DNA of 64,000 nt from Methanosarcina sp. MSH10X1 (GTDB lineage: Archaea > Halobacteriota > Methanosarcinia > Methanosarcinales > Methanosarcinaceae). This document shows positions 1 through 6,044 of this stretch, in pieces; the stretch's first letter is position 1, and each line of letters opens with the position of its first letter. A program made the position numbers and the translations under genes. Location of the stretch: assembly GCF_004099695.1 (NCBI RefSeq), contig NZ_SCHL01000011.1, positions 1-64,000 of the forward strand, in the 5' to 3' direction. The notes below the pieces were generated by a model that was not told the origin of the DNA, made no database searches, and saw only the letters and a list, made by a program, of their open reading frames with translations.

Positions 1-247
1 AAAAGGAAATTTGGAGAAACATTAAGAGCAAGAAAGGTTAGAAATCAAGTAAAAGAAGTAAAAGTTAAACTGATAGTTTATAACATGAACAAAAAAGTAA
101 TAGAAATAATATGGATCGAATTAAGGATTTCTACAGAGCCGGATCTTCTAATCTTTAACTTCACTCAGCCCGGTTGTCAGTAATGATACTTATTGACAGT
201 TTCCTGTATAACAACATTTATATTATTTAAAAATTAAATTTATTTTG
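1..247. other. AT-rich intergenic region upstream of antiporter
   Basis: No gene is seen here. The stretch is AT-rich, and its last 40 bases (a run of TTTATATTATTTAAAA type) are a plausible TATA/promoter region for the rightward antiporter gene. The left flank is outside the window. Confidence 0.4.
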
Positions 248-2239
248 ATGACAACGGATTTTCTAACCGACCTCCTGATCATCTTTGGACTTTCCATTCC
301 TGTAGTCTTTATTTTCTCAAAACTAAAGATAGCTCCGCTGATCGGCTTCTTACTCGCAGGTATTCTTGCCGGACCCTTCGGTCTTGAACTGATTCGGGAC
401 GTGGAAAATATCGAACTTCTGGCGGAAATAGGAGTAGTACTCCTGCTTTTTACAATAGGCATGGAGTTTTCACTGCGCGACCTGCTGCAGCTTCGCAGGG
501 TAGTGATTTTCGGAGGCGGGTTGCAGCTTTCCATAACTGCGATTATTGTTGCTCTCATATTCCTATGGCTTGGCAATTCCGAAGAATCCTCGATTTTCAT
601 CGGGCTTTTAGTGGCACTGAGCAGCACTGCAATTGTCCTTAAACTATTACAGGAAAAAGGAGAAATCTATAGTCTTCACGGGCGAACTTCTTTAGGAATA
701 CTGATCTTTCAGGATATAGCTGCAGTGATAATTATCCTCCTGATCCCGGTTCTCGCAGGTACCCCCGGAACAGAGAAATCTTTCCTGGAGCTTATTCTGC
801 AGGGGCTCGGGCTAATCGTGCTTACCCTTGTAAGCGCCAGATATATAGTCCCCTTCATCATGTATCAGGTGGCAAAGACACGGAATAATGAACTTTTCCT
901 CCTGAGTGTCATAGCAATAGGGCTCGCTGTAGCCTGGTTGACTTCAATTATTGGTCTCTCTCTGGCTCTCGGAGCTTTTCTTGCTGGTCTGATTATCTCC
1001 GAATCCGAGTATTCGGTTCAGGCTCTTGGAAATCTTATCCCATTCAGAGATGTGTTCATGAGCATTTTCTTTGTTTCAATAGGGATGTTGCTCGATCTCG
1101 ATATCTTGAGAGAGCATCTTCTTCTCATCCTGGCTGCTACATTAATTGTACTGCTCCTGAAGCTTCTGGCAAATAGTCTAAGTACCTTTCTCATAGGCTT
1201 CCCTTTGCATACAATGATCCTGGTAGGGTTCTCCCTTTCACAGGTGGGGGAGTTTTCCTTTATTCTTGCAAAAGTAGGCTATACGAGCAGGCTGATCTCC
1301 CCTCTTATGTATCAGGAATTCCTGGATATGGCAGTGCTTTCAATGGTACTTACCCCTCTTTTTATGGGTATAGGTTATCGAACCACAAGTTTTGCTGAGA
1401 CGTTACCTTTCCCGCCAATCTTGAAGCAAGGCTGGTACAGTAAATTTAAACAGGGCGAATCCGAAGAAAAACCTGAAAACCATGTAATTATAGTAGGATT
1501 CGGGATAAATGGCAAAAATGTCGTGACTGCCGCGAAGGACACTTCAATTCCTTATATCGTGATTGATATGAATCCTGAAGTCGTAAGAGTAGAGAAACTA
1601 AGGGGAGAGCATATCTTCTACGGCGATGCTGCTCAGAGTGCTGTGCTGGAACATGCAGGTATCCATTCCGCGAAATCCGTTGTTGTGACTGCAGGCGATC
1701 CTGCCAGTGCCAAAAGGATAATTGAAGTTGCCCGGAGGTTGAACCCTCAAATCCACATAATTGCAAGGACGCATTTCCTGAGTGAACTGGATAAATTCTA
1801 TGCTTTCGGGGCAGATGAAGTAATTTCTGACGAATTTGAAAGCTCAATAGAGCTTTTCACAAGGGTGCTTCACAGGTACTTAGTTCCCAGCAGCGAGATA
1901 AATTCTTTGGGTTCAACTCTACGTGCCGACCATTACGAGATGCTCCGGAATCCTGAAGTCCGCAGGAAGAAGATGTCCGATCTAGCTCTTGATTTTGCAG
2001 ATGTAGAGATCCGGAGCATCAGGGTCGGGAAGTCCTCCAGAGCGGCAGGAATGACTCTTGGAGAACTTAATCTCCGGAAAAATTATGGAGTATCTGCACT
2101 TGCAATCTCCCGGCTTCACAAAATCATTCCGGGTCCTGAAGCCAAAACTGAGATTCTCGCGAATGACATCCTGCTAGTTATCAGCCCGCCGGAAAAGCTT
2201 GATGAGGTAAGAAAGCTTTGTGAAGATAGTGTGGGATAA
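248..2239 (+). CDS. CPA2-family cation:proton antiporter with RCK (TrkA-N/TrkA-C) domains
   Basis: Membrane monovalent-cation:proton antiporter of the KefB/CPA2 type, expected to exchange K+ or Na+ for H+ at the cytoplasmic membrane. The first ~390 residues are a chain of about 12 hydrophobic segments carrying family-typical stretches (LAGILAGPFGL; LSSTAIVLKLL; FLAGLIISESEY). From about residue 411 a cytosolic TrkA-N Rossmann domain begins with VIIVGFGINGKNVV, the nucleotide-binding GxGxxG. A TrkA-C domain occupies roughly residues 580-655. At 663 residues it has normal KefB-like length. An in-frame TTG lies directly before the ATG at 248; the ATG is preferred. It stands alone, but the next genes also concern cation transport. 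Family assignment is firm; ion specificity cannot be read. Confidence 0.93.
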   Translation: MTTDFLTDLLIIFGLSIPVVFIFSKLKIAPLIGFLLAGILAGPFGLELIRDVENIELLAEIGVVLLLFTIGMEFSLRDLLQLRRVVIFGGGLQLSITAIIVALIFLWLGNSEESSIFIGLLVALSSTAIVLKLLQEKGEIYSLHGRTSLGILIFQDIAAVIIILLIPVLAGTPGTEKSFLELILQGLGLIVLTLVSARYIVPFIMYQVAKTRNNELFLLSVIAIGLAVAWLTSIIGLSLALGAFLAGLIISESEYSVQALGNLIPFRDVFMSIFFVSIGMLLDLDILREHLLLILAATLIVLLLKLLANSLSTFLIGFPLHTMILVGFSLSQVGEFSFILAKVGYTSRLISPLMYQEFLDMAVLSMVLTPLFMGIGYRTTSFAETLPFPPILKQGWYSKFKQGESEEKPENHVIIVGFGINGKNVVTAAKDTSIPYIVIDMNPEVVRVEKLRGEHIFYGDAAQSAVLEHAGIHSAKSVVVTAGDPASAKRIIEVARRLNPQIHIIARTHFLSELDKFYAFGADEVISDEFESSIELFTRVLHRYLVPSSEINSLGSTLRADHYEMLRNPEVRRKKMSDLALDFADVEIRSIRVGKSSRAAGMTLGELNLRKNYGVSALAISRLHKIIPGPEAKTEILANDILLVISPPEKLDEVRKLCEDSVG

Positions 2240-2778: not shown

Positions 2779-3471
2779 ATGATGAGGGGTATAAAAGAAA
2801 CTTTTCTGGAAGTCACTCGGGCTGTCTTTCCTTTAACTCTGGCAGTAGTGTTACTCTTGCTTTTGTTCGTTGGTATAAGCTTGAACAACCTTATTTCCTT
2901 TTTAATAGCTACAATTCTAACTGCGATAGGAATGACCTTTTTTCTAACTGGGGTTAAGCTGAGTATGCTCCCGATAGGAGAGGCAATTGGAGGTGACTTG
3001 CCTAAGCATAATTCACTGGCGTTCATCGCATTGGTAGTGTTTTTACTCTCATCCTTTGTAGCCGTAGCAGAACCGAATGTGAGTGTTTTAATTGGCATGA
3101 TTGACTCAGCTTTGCAGGGAAGCATAGATAACAATTTATTAGTAATTTCCATAGCCTGTGGAGTAGGTATCCTTATGGTTATTTCCATCCTGAGGATAAT
3201 CTATGGAACCCCTATCAAATATTTATTTGCTGTAATTTATTCATTTATACTCGTGCTGTCCTTTTTCATATCTGATGATTACCTGGCAATTGCTTTTGAT
3301 TCCGGAAGCGTAACTACCGGGGCTATGTTTGTGCCTGTGCTTATGGGACTTGGAATCGGGATAGCTTCAGTATTGCAGGATAGATCTGAACTTGATGGAT
3401 TCGGACTTGTAGGTCTGGCAACTACGGGCCCCATAATAAGTATCATGCTCATGGGGGTTCTGTCTTCATGA
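2779..3471 (+). CDS. DUF1538 membrane protein, first subunit of a pair
   Basis: Polytopic membrane protein of the DUF1538 family, about 230 residues with about six to seven hydrophobic segments. The family-typical features are GVKLSMLPIGEAIGG after the third segment, a VAVAEPNVSVL stretch, and the terminal half-repeat AFDSGSVTTGAMFVPVL. In Halomonas a DUF1538 gene pair (UmpA/UmpB) has been described as a two-component Na+(Li+,K+)/H+ antiporter, so cation/proton exchange is the best guess here. The ATG at 2779 is preferred because GGTGGA precedes it by seven bases; TTG at 2764 and GTG at 2767 also open the frame. The stop overlaps the start of the next gene (ATGA), so the two are translationally coupled. 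Confidence 0.88.
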   Translation: MMRGIKETFLEVTRAVFPLTLAVVLLLLLFVGISLNNLISFLIATILTAIGMTFFLTGVKLSMLPIGEAIGGDLPKHNSLAFIALVVFLLSSFVAVAEPNVSVLIGMIDSALQGSIDNNLLVISIACGVGILMVISILRIIYGTPIKYLFAVIYSFILVLSFFISDDYLAIAFDSGSVTTGAMFVPVLMGLGIGIASVLQDRSELDGFGLVGLATTGPIISIMLMGVLSS

Positions 3472-4196
3472 TTTCAGGTATGGAGGAAATTTTGGCTGTA
3501 TTCTTTGAGGTTATTCAGTCAATCGCTCCTCTAATTATTTTCTTCACATTGTTCCAGATATTGTATTTAAAGTTGCCTCCAACGCAGTTAAAAAAACTTT
3601 ACTTAGGTTTAACCCTTACTGCATTTGGCATGATATTGTTTCTTCATGGTGTTAACAATAGCTTTCTACCTGCGGGAACGGCAATAGGAGAATTCTTTGG
3701 CGGTTCTAAAAAAAACTTTTTAATTCCCATAGGTTTCCTACTGGGTTTACTTGCTACTTTTGCAGAACCTTCTGTACGGGTATTATGTTACCAGGTTGAG
3801 GAATCTTCCGGTGGTTATATAAGAGCAAATCTCATGCTTTATACATTATCTCTTGCAGTTGCTATGCTGGCTGCTATCACGATGGCAAAAATTATCTATA
3901 GAATCCCTTTCCTGTACATAATAGTTCCAGGTTATTTACTTGTCCTTATTTTGTTATTTTTTTCCGACAGGGACTTTATAGGTATCGCGTTTGATGCAGG
4001 AGGAGCTGTAACAGGTCCAATGGCTGTGTCTTTCCTTATGTCGATGGCTCTCGGAGTGGCTACTGCGCACGAGGGCGCAGATCCTGTCGCAGACGGCTTT
4101 GGCTTGATTGCAATGATCGCACTCGCACCTATTATTTTTGTTATGCTGTTGGGTGTTTATATAAGATTTAATGGAGGTAAAAACAATGTGCAATAA
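3468..4196 (+). CDS. DUF1538 membrane protein, second subunit of a pair
   Basis: Second DUF1538 polytopic membrane protein, 242 residues, paralogous to the preceding one. The shared landmarks are GVNNSFLPAGTAIGEFFGG, LATFAEPSVRVL and AFDAGGAVTGPMAVSFLMS, matching the equivalent segments of its partner. Its ATG overlaps the partner's stop codon by four bases, and its 3' end overlaps the P-II-like gene by eleven bases. The three genes therefore look like one tightly coupled operon making a heteromeric transporter and its cytosolic regulator. The substrate is inferred only from described bacterial DUF1538 pairs that act as cation/proton antiporters. Confidence 0.88.
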   Translation: MISGMEEILAVFFEVIQSIAPLIIFFTLFQILYLKLPPTQLKKLYLGLTLTAFGMILFLHGVNNSFLPAGTAIGEFFGGSKKNFLIPIGFLLGLLATFAEPSVRVLCYQVEESSGGYIRANLMLYTLSLAVAMLAAITMAKIIYRIPFLYIIVPGYLLVLILLFFSDRDFIGIAFDAGGAVTGPMAVSFLMSMALGVATAHEGADPVADGFGLIAMIALAPIIFVMLLGVYIRFNGGKNNVQ

Positions 4197-4542
4197 GAGT
4201 GAATTTGTGTTAATAGTAACAATTGTCAAAAAGGGATGGGGTGACGAGGTTATTAAAGCCTCAAGAAAAGCCGGTGCCCAGGGAGGAACAATCTTATTTG
4301 GTCGTGGCACAGGAATTCATGAGACTAAAAGTATTCTTGGTTTAATGATTGAACCCGAAAAAGAAATGGTACTTACAATAGCCGAGTCAGGTATTGAAGA
4401 TAATATTCGGAATAGCATTATTAATGCTATAAACCTCAATGAACCCGGAGTGGGAATAGGGTTTGTAGTTTCACTGGACAAAGTATTCGGGATCTGTCAT
4501 TCGTTTTATGAAACGAGGAAGTGTCCGCAGGACGAAAAATAA
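4186..4542 (+). CDS. P-II-like signalling protein linked to the DUF1538 transporter
   Basis: Small soluble protein of the P-II/GlnB-like superfamily, about 118 residues. The pattern KKGWGDEVIKASRKAGAQGG followed by ILFGRGTG is the characteristic beta-alpha-beta start with the GRGTG turn, and NEPGVGIGFVVSLDKVFGI corresponds to the C-terminal P-II strand. The region that would hold the T-loop reads IHETKSILGLMIEPEKEMV and lacks the conserved uridylylated tyrosine of classical GlnB, so it is a P-II-like sensor and not a nitrogen regulator in the strict sense. The ATG at 4186 is favoured over 4171 because GGAGGT lies seven bases upstream. By position it probably gates or senses for the DUF1538 pair; the ligand is unknown. 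Confidence 0.82.
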   Translation: MCNKSEFVLIVTIVKKGWGDEVIKASRKAGAQGGTILFGRGTGIHETKSILGLMIEPEKEMVLTIAESGIEDNIRNSIINAINLNEPGVGIGFVVSLDKVFGICHSFYETRKCPQDEK

Positions 4543-4714: not shown

Positions 4715-4993
4715 TTGAAACTGGCAGACGAAATGACTTACTCAAGGGTCAAAGAAACTCTTGACGAGCTCGCCTTCGACCCCGTTCCACCGCGATTAAT
4801 AAGAACAATCGAGAGCAAAGGAAAACTTTTCCGATTACGGTCCCGGCATTTAAGACCCTTTTACAGGATCAATTATGAAAACCAGATTCTGGTAGTTATA
4901 TTAATTGATCCTTTGAATCATATATCTCGTGAAAAGAGCAGTAATTTAGATTTTTTTATACATTCTGACTGCAGGAAATTAGAAAAAGTATAA
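4715..4993 (+). CDS. RelE/ParE-like toxin fragment, N-terminally incomplete
   Basis: The reading frame matches the second two-thirds of a RelE/ParE-superfamily mRNA-interferase toxin: RVKETLDELAFDPVPP, then GKLFRLRSRHLRPFYRINYE and a hydrophobic strand ILVVILIDP. The first helix, which normally precedes this by about 20 residues, is missing. Only a TTG (4715) or a late ATG (4733) could start it. No antitoxin-like gene is visible on either side. It therefore looks like a decayed or orphaned toxin. An ATG at 4708 is in another frame and runs only about 18 codons. Fold assignment is moderate; functionality is doubtful. Confidence 0.5.
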   Translation: MKLADEMTYSRVKETLDELAFDPVPPRLIRTIESKGKLFRLRSRHLRPFYRINYENQILVVILIDPLNHISREKSSNLDFFIHSDCRKLEKV

Positions 4994-5335: not shown

Positions 5336-5719
5336 ATGAAGTGGAAGCAGTTCAGAATAATTTCCTTGCTGATTGTAACAGTCCTCGGGGCTGTTGTAGG
5401 TTTTTCAGTTTCCAGTGGAAATCTTGCACTTGCGGCAGGTGCTGCATTTACAGGCATGGCCGCCATGTATATTTCCAGGCACAGGGTTGAAGATATAGTC
5501 GAAGATGAGAGGATCCGCCAGGTAAGTCAGAGAGCTTCCTGGGTTACTCTTCAGTTTACAGCTATCGGCTTTGCACTAGGAGGGGCAATTCTGATAGCCA
5601 TGAGAGAAGCCCATCCAGGCTATGTTGACCTTGGCTTTTTCATGGCATATGCAAGCTGTGCAGTGCTTGTGCTTTACTCAATCTTTTATATGTACTTTAA
5701 TCTAAAATCCGGGGGCTGA
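5336..5719 (+). CDS. DUF2178-type small membrane protein
   Basis: 127-residue membrane protein with four hydrophobic segments: residues ~7-25, ~28-45, ~72-92 and ~100-122. The cytosolic stretch RHRVEDIVEDERIRQVSQRA between segments 2 and 3 is the hallmark of DUF2178 proteins. In many archaea and Firmicutes such a protein is encoded directly before a very small Xre regulator, exactly as here, with the regulator about 100 bases downstream. The pair is probably a membrane-linked regulatory unit, but no biochemical role is established. The ATG at 5336 is chosen because the protein then begins MKWKQFRIISLLIV, a good membrane-insertion start; an overlapping frame from 5287 is a shadow. Confidence 0.75.
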   Translation: MKWKQFRIISLLIVTVLGAVVGFSVSSGNLALAAGAAFTGMAAMYISRHRVEDIVEDERIRQVSQRASWVTLQFTAIGFALGGAILIAMREAHPGYVDLGFFMAYASCAVLVLYSIFYMYFNLKSGG

Positions 5720-5819
5720 ACTGACGGTTGGATTTTATGAATTTTCTGGTTGTAAATGTACCATGTCTTGCACTCGATTCATATCTGACAACAATCTAGC
5801 AAATAATACGGGGCATGTG

Positions 5820-6044
5820 ATGAAGAACAATATTAAAGTTTACAGGGCAATGCATGATCTTACTCAGGAAAGCCTGGCTGAGAAAGTGGGAGTGACAAGG
5901 CAAACCATACATGCAATTGAGAAGGGCAAGTACGATCCCTCCCTTGAGCTTGCATTCAAACTCGCCAGGCTTTTCGATACCCTTATTGAGGATATTTTTC
6001 TCTATGAAGATTCCGAAACAGGAAATTTTGAAAAAAAAGGCTAA
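5820..6044 (+). CDS. Small Xre-family HTH regulator
   Basis: 74-residue DNA-binding protein made of little more than one helix-turn-helix: IKVYRAMHDLTQESLAEKVG, VTRQTIHAIEKGKYDPSLEL and AFKLARLFDTLIEDIF. This is the YozG/Xre-like mini-regulator class, which often represses its own operon together with a neighbouring membrane protein. The ATG at 5820 is chosen because the protein starts MKNNIKVYRAMHDL, the usual N-terminus of the class; the longer frame from 5763 adds an unrelated leader. Together with the DUF2178 gene upstream it forms a regulator/membrane-protein pair. Confidence 0.85.
   Translation: MKNNIKVYRAMHDLTQESLAEKVGVTRQTIHAIEKGKYDPSLELAFKLARLFDTLIEDIFLYEDSETGNFEKKG

Follow-up and report, generated by a model that had tools for sequence, protein, structure and literature searches.

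A PII-like protein gene accompanies DUF1538 transporter genes in Archaea and Bacteria: a candidate regulated cation/proton antiporter

Genes of the DUF1538 membrane protein family are near-universally linked to a gene for a PII-like protein across two domains of life. Our starting point was a 64,000-nucleotide stretch of Methanosarcina sp. MSH10X1 (contig NZ_SCHL01000011.1, positions 1 to 64,000; hereafter the window), and the explanation that we regard as probable is that a dedicated PII-type regulatory protein gates a DUF1538 cation/proton antiporter. An initial annotation of this DNA had proposed a regulated three-part system in methanogens. The operonic partnership is indeed conserved; its restriction to methanogens does not hold, as it spans Archaea and many bacterial phyla. 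The module looks like an apparently undescribed, widespread sensor-controlled ion exchanger and not like a methanogen oddity.

Results

In the window the genes for DUF1538-A, DUF1538-B and the PII-like protein overlap one another (Table 1): A and B by 4 bases (ATGA), and B and the PII-like gene, which starts at ATG 4186, by 11 bases. GGTGGA lies ahead of the A start at ATG 2779, and an alternative open TTG start is found at 2764. Both membrane proteins match PF07556 over their full length (Pfam, cut-off 22.6), with E = 1.6e-60 and 204.5 bits for A and E = 3.8e-66 and 222.8 bits for B, and they are paralogues with 36% identity over 233 columns (E = 2e-38). These overlaps and the paralogy are as the initial annotation had described them. 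The host genome (3.56 Mb, 55 contigs) holds a single DUF1538 pair and three further PII genes, which lie on another contig. Simple scans for bacterial-type promoters and terminators at the module gave no signal above shuffled sequence. A defence-system reading was dropped, PADLOC giving no match for any of the three proteins.

Table 1. Features of the DUF1538/PII-like module and its upstream neighbour in the window
Feature	Position	Strand	Basis
CPA2-type cation/proton antiporter with TrkA-N and TrkA-C domains	245..2239	+	Pfam, NCBIfam
DUF1538-A	2779..3471	+	PF07556; A clade; AEP and FDSG motifs kept; UmpA-like position
DUF1538-B	3468..4196	+	PF07556; B clade; E100 and D176; all-helix model, pLDDT 95
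GGAGGT, ribosome-binding-site-like, within the 3' end of B and preceding the PII-like start	4173..4178	+	Sequence reading
PII-like protein, 118 aa	4186..4542	+	PF00543, 23.7 bits; AlphaFold2/Foldseek PII fold; DUF1538 linkage

Within the host's order, 22 of 120 genomes carry both genes, one carries DUF1538 only and none the PII-like gene alone (Fisher p about 4e-23, without correction for relatedness), and the 22 PII-like genes sit immediately 3' of DUF1538. In the DUF1538-only genome (G107) the contig stops inside B; an additional PII-like match in another genome (G086, contig 28) is also at a contig end. Across 295 genomes of the phylum, DUF1538 scored above its cut-off in 44 and the PII-like family was found at E of 1e-12 or better in 43. 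All 46 PII-like matches listed are near DUF1538 matches, and G107 is again the sole genome with DUF1538 only.

Several loci depart from the simple arrangement. In one genome (G257; loci L165 and L270) an intact PII-like gene lies slightly more than 2.5 kb downstream of the DUF1538 pair, separated from it by ORFs for a TnpB-type transposase and an acetyltransferase-like protein. A member of the Methanosarcinaceae (G110; L008, L031) has two full DUF1538-DUF1538-PII modules, one of them with an extra partial DUF1538 upstream. The Methanosarcina genomes split on presence or absence of the module (G057, G075, G081 and G114 versus G069, G099, G103, G115 and G117), those without it being the larger ones (3.8-4.6 Mb).

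The linkage extends far beyond this phylum. When species genomes were scanned for the PII-like family, 80 loci came up in methanogens, Bacillota, Actinomycetota, Thermodesulfobacteriota/Myxococcota, Chloroflexota, Acidobacteriota and Pseudomonadota, and DUF1538 lies directly upstream in 79 of them; this sample is tilted to close relatives because the query consisted of conserved motifs of the archaeal family. The one exception, from a Bacillota MAG (L132, 5956-6315), is a solitary PII-like gene located 3' of a transhydrogenase-like sequence and 5' of a GTPase-like gene. A search starting from DUF1538, which does not favour PII, gave matches in 126 of 398 Pseudomonadota and 84 of 249 Bacillota genomes. 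At the best-scoring loci, chosen by rank and not at random, a PII-like gene follows DUF1538 in 30/30 cases in Pseudomonadota and 30/30 in Bacillota. A second Pseudomonadota set from one order, sharing some genomes with the first, gave 29/29 loci with the PII-like gene plus one contig end. This gene order recurs in four plasmid records of named organisms, in which RefSeq calls the genes DUF1538 and P-II family nitrogen regulator. Of 171 loci measured, 132 have an overlap between B and the PII-like gene, most commonly of 4, 8 or 11 bases, and no direct DUF1538-PII gene fusion was found among the loci scanned. A chance operon is ruled out by these genome surveys of linkage together with the overlap. 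The initial annotation had made its proposal depend on conservation of the PII-like gene in related genomes and had suggested a survey of DUF1538 neighbourhoods; the gene is conserved beside DUF1538 in the host's relatives, in archaea and beyond.

The architecture of the module varies between lineages. Archaeal loci mostly have the order A-B-P, where P is the PII-like gene, and Methanoperedens-like genomes and family f11 have a single DUF1538 followed by P. Bacillota mostly have A-B and then two PII domains, encoded by two genes or by one fused gene. A fused A-B ORF occurs with a fused double PII at three archaeal loci; most fused A-B loci of Bacillota likewise have the fused PII double, one of them (L214) having two separate PII genes, and two fused A-B loci of Pseudomonadota (L180, L189) retain a single P. 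These parallel fusions suggest that PII domain number is adjusted to the transporter. The pairwise distances for B correlate with those for P (r = 0.81 over 119 loci), in part through species history. In the tree, A and B form separate clades that each contain archaeal and Bacillota members, so the DUF1538 pair is old, and the Ump-like pairs of Pseudomonadota form their own deep branch, at a place in the tree that carries a long-branch warning.

By fold prediction and sequence, the PII-like protein belongs to the PII superfamily. Its match to PF00543 (E = 6.3e-5) is slightly below the cut-off of 25 bits, which most relatives tested exceed (30-38 bits), and its AlphaFold2 model aligns with solved PII and SbtB structures at a Foldseek probability of 1.00. 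The T-loop (residues 39-58, GRGTGIHETKSILGLMIEPE) is shorter than in the other PIIs of the genome and, as had been noted initially, contains no tyrosine, the classical modification site. The B-loop, GDGKIFV in the genome's own PIIs, reads PGxGIxFV, and the C-loop, there IRTG, reads GIxH. Classical PII proteins grip ATP with K90, R101 and R103 (E. coli numbering). All three are present in the genome's three other PIIs; in the PII-like protein they are replaced by I/V, G and I/V/A, respectively. Conserved in the family are the RGxG core, K59 (K/R 99%), E60 (E/D 97%), G102 and H105; most Pseudomonadota members have RGxG without the HE. These replacements are most simply read as a rebuilt ligand cleft. 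Since the lysine and both arginines for ATP are lost, the ligand is probably different and not the classical ATP/2-oxoglutarate combination; candidates would be an adenine nucleotide in a different binding mode, a cyclic dinucleotide or an anion. A classical GlnB/GlnK nitrogen PII was rejected on the lost residues and the gene context.

The helices of the DUF1538-B model, which has a high mean pLDDT, are broken around residues 99-100 and 182-185. In all DUF1538 branches E100 (E in 98%, otherwise D) and D176 (100%) are kept, and both lie at or near these breaks. Acidic residues at broken helices are typical of ion sites, and E100 and D176 may form such a site. No solved chain was matched by a PDB sequence search with DUF1538, and Foldseek with the single-subunit B model returned no match below E = 0.38; an SbtA-like, NhaA-like or other known transporter fold was recognised by neither search. 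The DUF1538 pair with measured antiport is Halomonas UmpAB, expressed in E. coli KNabc from a clone whose description includes no PII gene (PMC5484666), so the PII-like protein there can be at most a modulator and not a required subunit. DUF1538 is also among the genes that predict growth pH (PMC13255231). By analogy with UmpAB, the archaeal A-B pair is a putative cation/proton antiporter. Against the UmpA and UmpB equivalogs NF041627 and NF041628 (cut-offs 490 and 500), A and B score below cut-off at 69-98 bits, with 93-98 bits for UmpA (cut-off 490), and a search for a genuine Halomonas umpAB locus found no genome above the UmpA cut-off among 198 of one order.

The other neighbours that recur most are CPA2 antiporters (16 loci among the 80 centred on PII, seven of them non-independent Methanosarcina loci) and P-type cation ATPases (8 loci); the remaining recurrent neighbours are few and lineage-bound. 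The CPA2 antiporter of the window lies 0.5 kb upstream of the module on the same strand, outside the overlapping operon, and further members of its family are found close to DUF1538-PII loci of Methanosarcina and some other archaea and bacteria. On the 3' side, an ORF at 4715-4993 has a weak, below-cut-off match to a ParE toxin family (E = 0.028) and is conserved in a few Methanosarcina loci. At 5336-6044 lie a small membrane-type ORF and, after it, a helix-turn-helix regulator gene, a pair conserved in nearby Methanosarcina loci.

Discussion

We favour a PII gate on a DUF1538 antiporter because the gene pairing is near-universal, as for glnK-amtB. Pairing of this kind is the type of evidence that first linked glnK to amtB. 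Gating is further supported by the linkage seen from both directions of search, the translational overlap, the parallel fusions and the B/P distance correlation, and the assignment as an antiporter by UmpAB antiport, the ranking among pH genes and the cation antiporters and ATPases in the neighbourhood. In such a system the A-B pair would form the cation/proton antiporter, perhaps as a trimer of pairs, and a cytoplasmic PII trimer would dock its T-loops onto the cytoplasmic face of the transporter, which it would lock or release according to the ligand in the cleft between PII subunits. Direct binding, gating, the oligomeric state, the ligand and the ion that the archaeal branch transports are all predicted features of this model. 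Other PII proteins gate transporters directly, and in GlnK-AmtB and SbtB-SbtA a PII trimer locks a trimeric transporter from the cytoplasmic face (PMC10710835). Several points stand against the model. UmpAB was active in E. coli although the clone is described with no PII gene (PMC5484666). By sequence, a deep split lies between the archaeal A-B branch and the assayed Ump branch. UmpAB is reportedly a heterodimer. In contrast, the PII-controlled transporters known so far are trimers (PMC10710835).

The main rival concerns the substrate. The PII-like protein might control a DUF1538 transporter that here carries something else, such as bicarbonate, a weak acid or an ammonium-like cation, with UmpAB antiport being branch-specific or a side activity. 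Antiport has been measured in the Pseudomonadota branch only, from which the window proteins, with their low UmpA/UmpB scores, are deeply separated. In a 2023 review of regulated bacterial transporters the PII-controlled ones are only the Amt, nitrate, urea and bicarbonate systems, and the known substrates under PII gating are ammonium, nitrate, urea or bicarbonate (PMC10710835). Nevertheless, the acidic E100 and D176 are kept in both branches, the neighbours are cation antiporters and cation ATPases, and DUF1538 is ranked among pH-adaptation genes (PMC13255231), and we consider a different substrate unlikely.

Considerably less probable is that the PII-like protein reports the state of the transporter to another cytoplasmic target instead of gating transport. 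The model for this is AmtB, which titrates GlnK and thereby affects nitrogen enzymes. The activity of UmpAB in E. coli from the clone described without a PII gene (PMC5484666) and the several targets that PII proteins often have (PMC10710835) would fit a reporter, but no other gene is as constantly linked to the pair. An ordinary nitrogen-sensing PII of the GlnB/GlnK type that merely lies beside DUF1538, as the PF00543 match and the RefSeq name P-II family nitrogen regulator might suggest, was already disfavoured and is very improbable given the T-loop without tyrosine, the lost equivalents of K90, R101 and R103, the three other PII genes already in the genome and the near-universal linkage across two domains.

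Beyond a PII gate on a DUF1538 antiporter, we tentatively advance the possibility of a signalling class within the PII superfamily that is tied to one transporter family in both Archaea and Bacteria, would sense a ligand other than ATP/2-oxoglutarate through the rebuilt nucleotide cleft and the GRGxGxHE T-loop, and would gate an antiporter for which our searches recovered no solved relative. The module would then be the first PII-gated monovalent cation/proton antiporter, and PII proteins would control pH and salt balance besides nitrogen and carbon.

PII proteins are sensors of nitrogen, carbon and energy status. If our interpretation is true, PII control extends to cation and pH homeostasis. 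The PII partner at nearly every DUF1538 locus read implies that studies of UmpAB have left out its sensor. Our literature search, with most subscription papers outside its scope, found no paper linking DUF1538 or UmpAB with a PII protein. In RefSeq the two names stand next to each other, each gene with its own label, and the linkage can therefore be seen in databases. DUF1538 is absent from 14 of 14 control genomes, E. coli, B. subtilis and Methanosarcina acetivorans among them; this absence may be the reason that the PII link was overlooked.

Among known systems, UmpAB of Halomonas zhaodongensis, a two-component Na+(Li+,K+)/H+ antiporter, shares with the window the paired DUF1538 subunits in one operon and the residues E100 and D176, and the Ump-type pairs of Pseudomonadota also have a PII-like gene downstream. 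However, the window pair belongs to a separate deep branch far below the NCBIfam cut-offs, and no PII gene has been reported for UmpAB. SbtB-SbtA of cyanobacteria likewise combines a non-classical PII-like protein of PII fold with an adjacent gene for a transporter, in that case of bicarbonate. Unlike SbtB, the window protein lacks the C-terminal CGPxxC R-loop (PMC10117731) and has a different T-loop, GRGxGxHE; its partner belongs to PF07556, for which neither the PDB sequence search nor Foldseek recognised relatedness to SbtA. In GlnK-AmtB, too, the genes of a PII protein and a membrane transporter form a conserved pair, and the PII fold is shared, whereas in the window the classical ATP residues and the T-loop tyrosine are missing and the transporter is DUF1538 instead of Amt. 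CPA2/KefB-KefC proteins with TrkA domains resemble the proposed system in coupling cation/proton antiport to a cytosolic ligand-sensing domain, but there the sensor is a fused TrkA domain and not a separate PII protein, and the Pfam family is unrelated.
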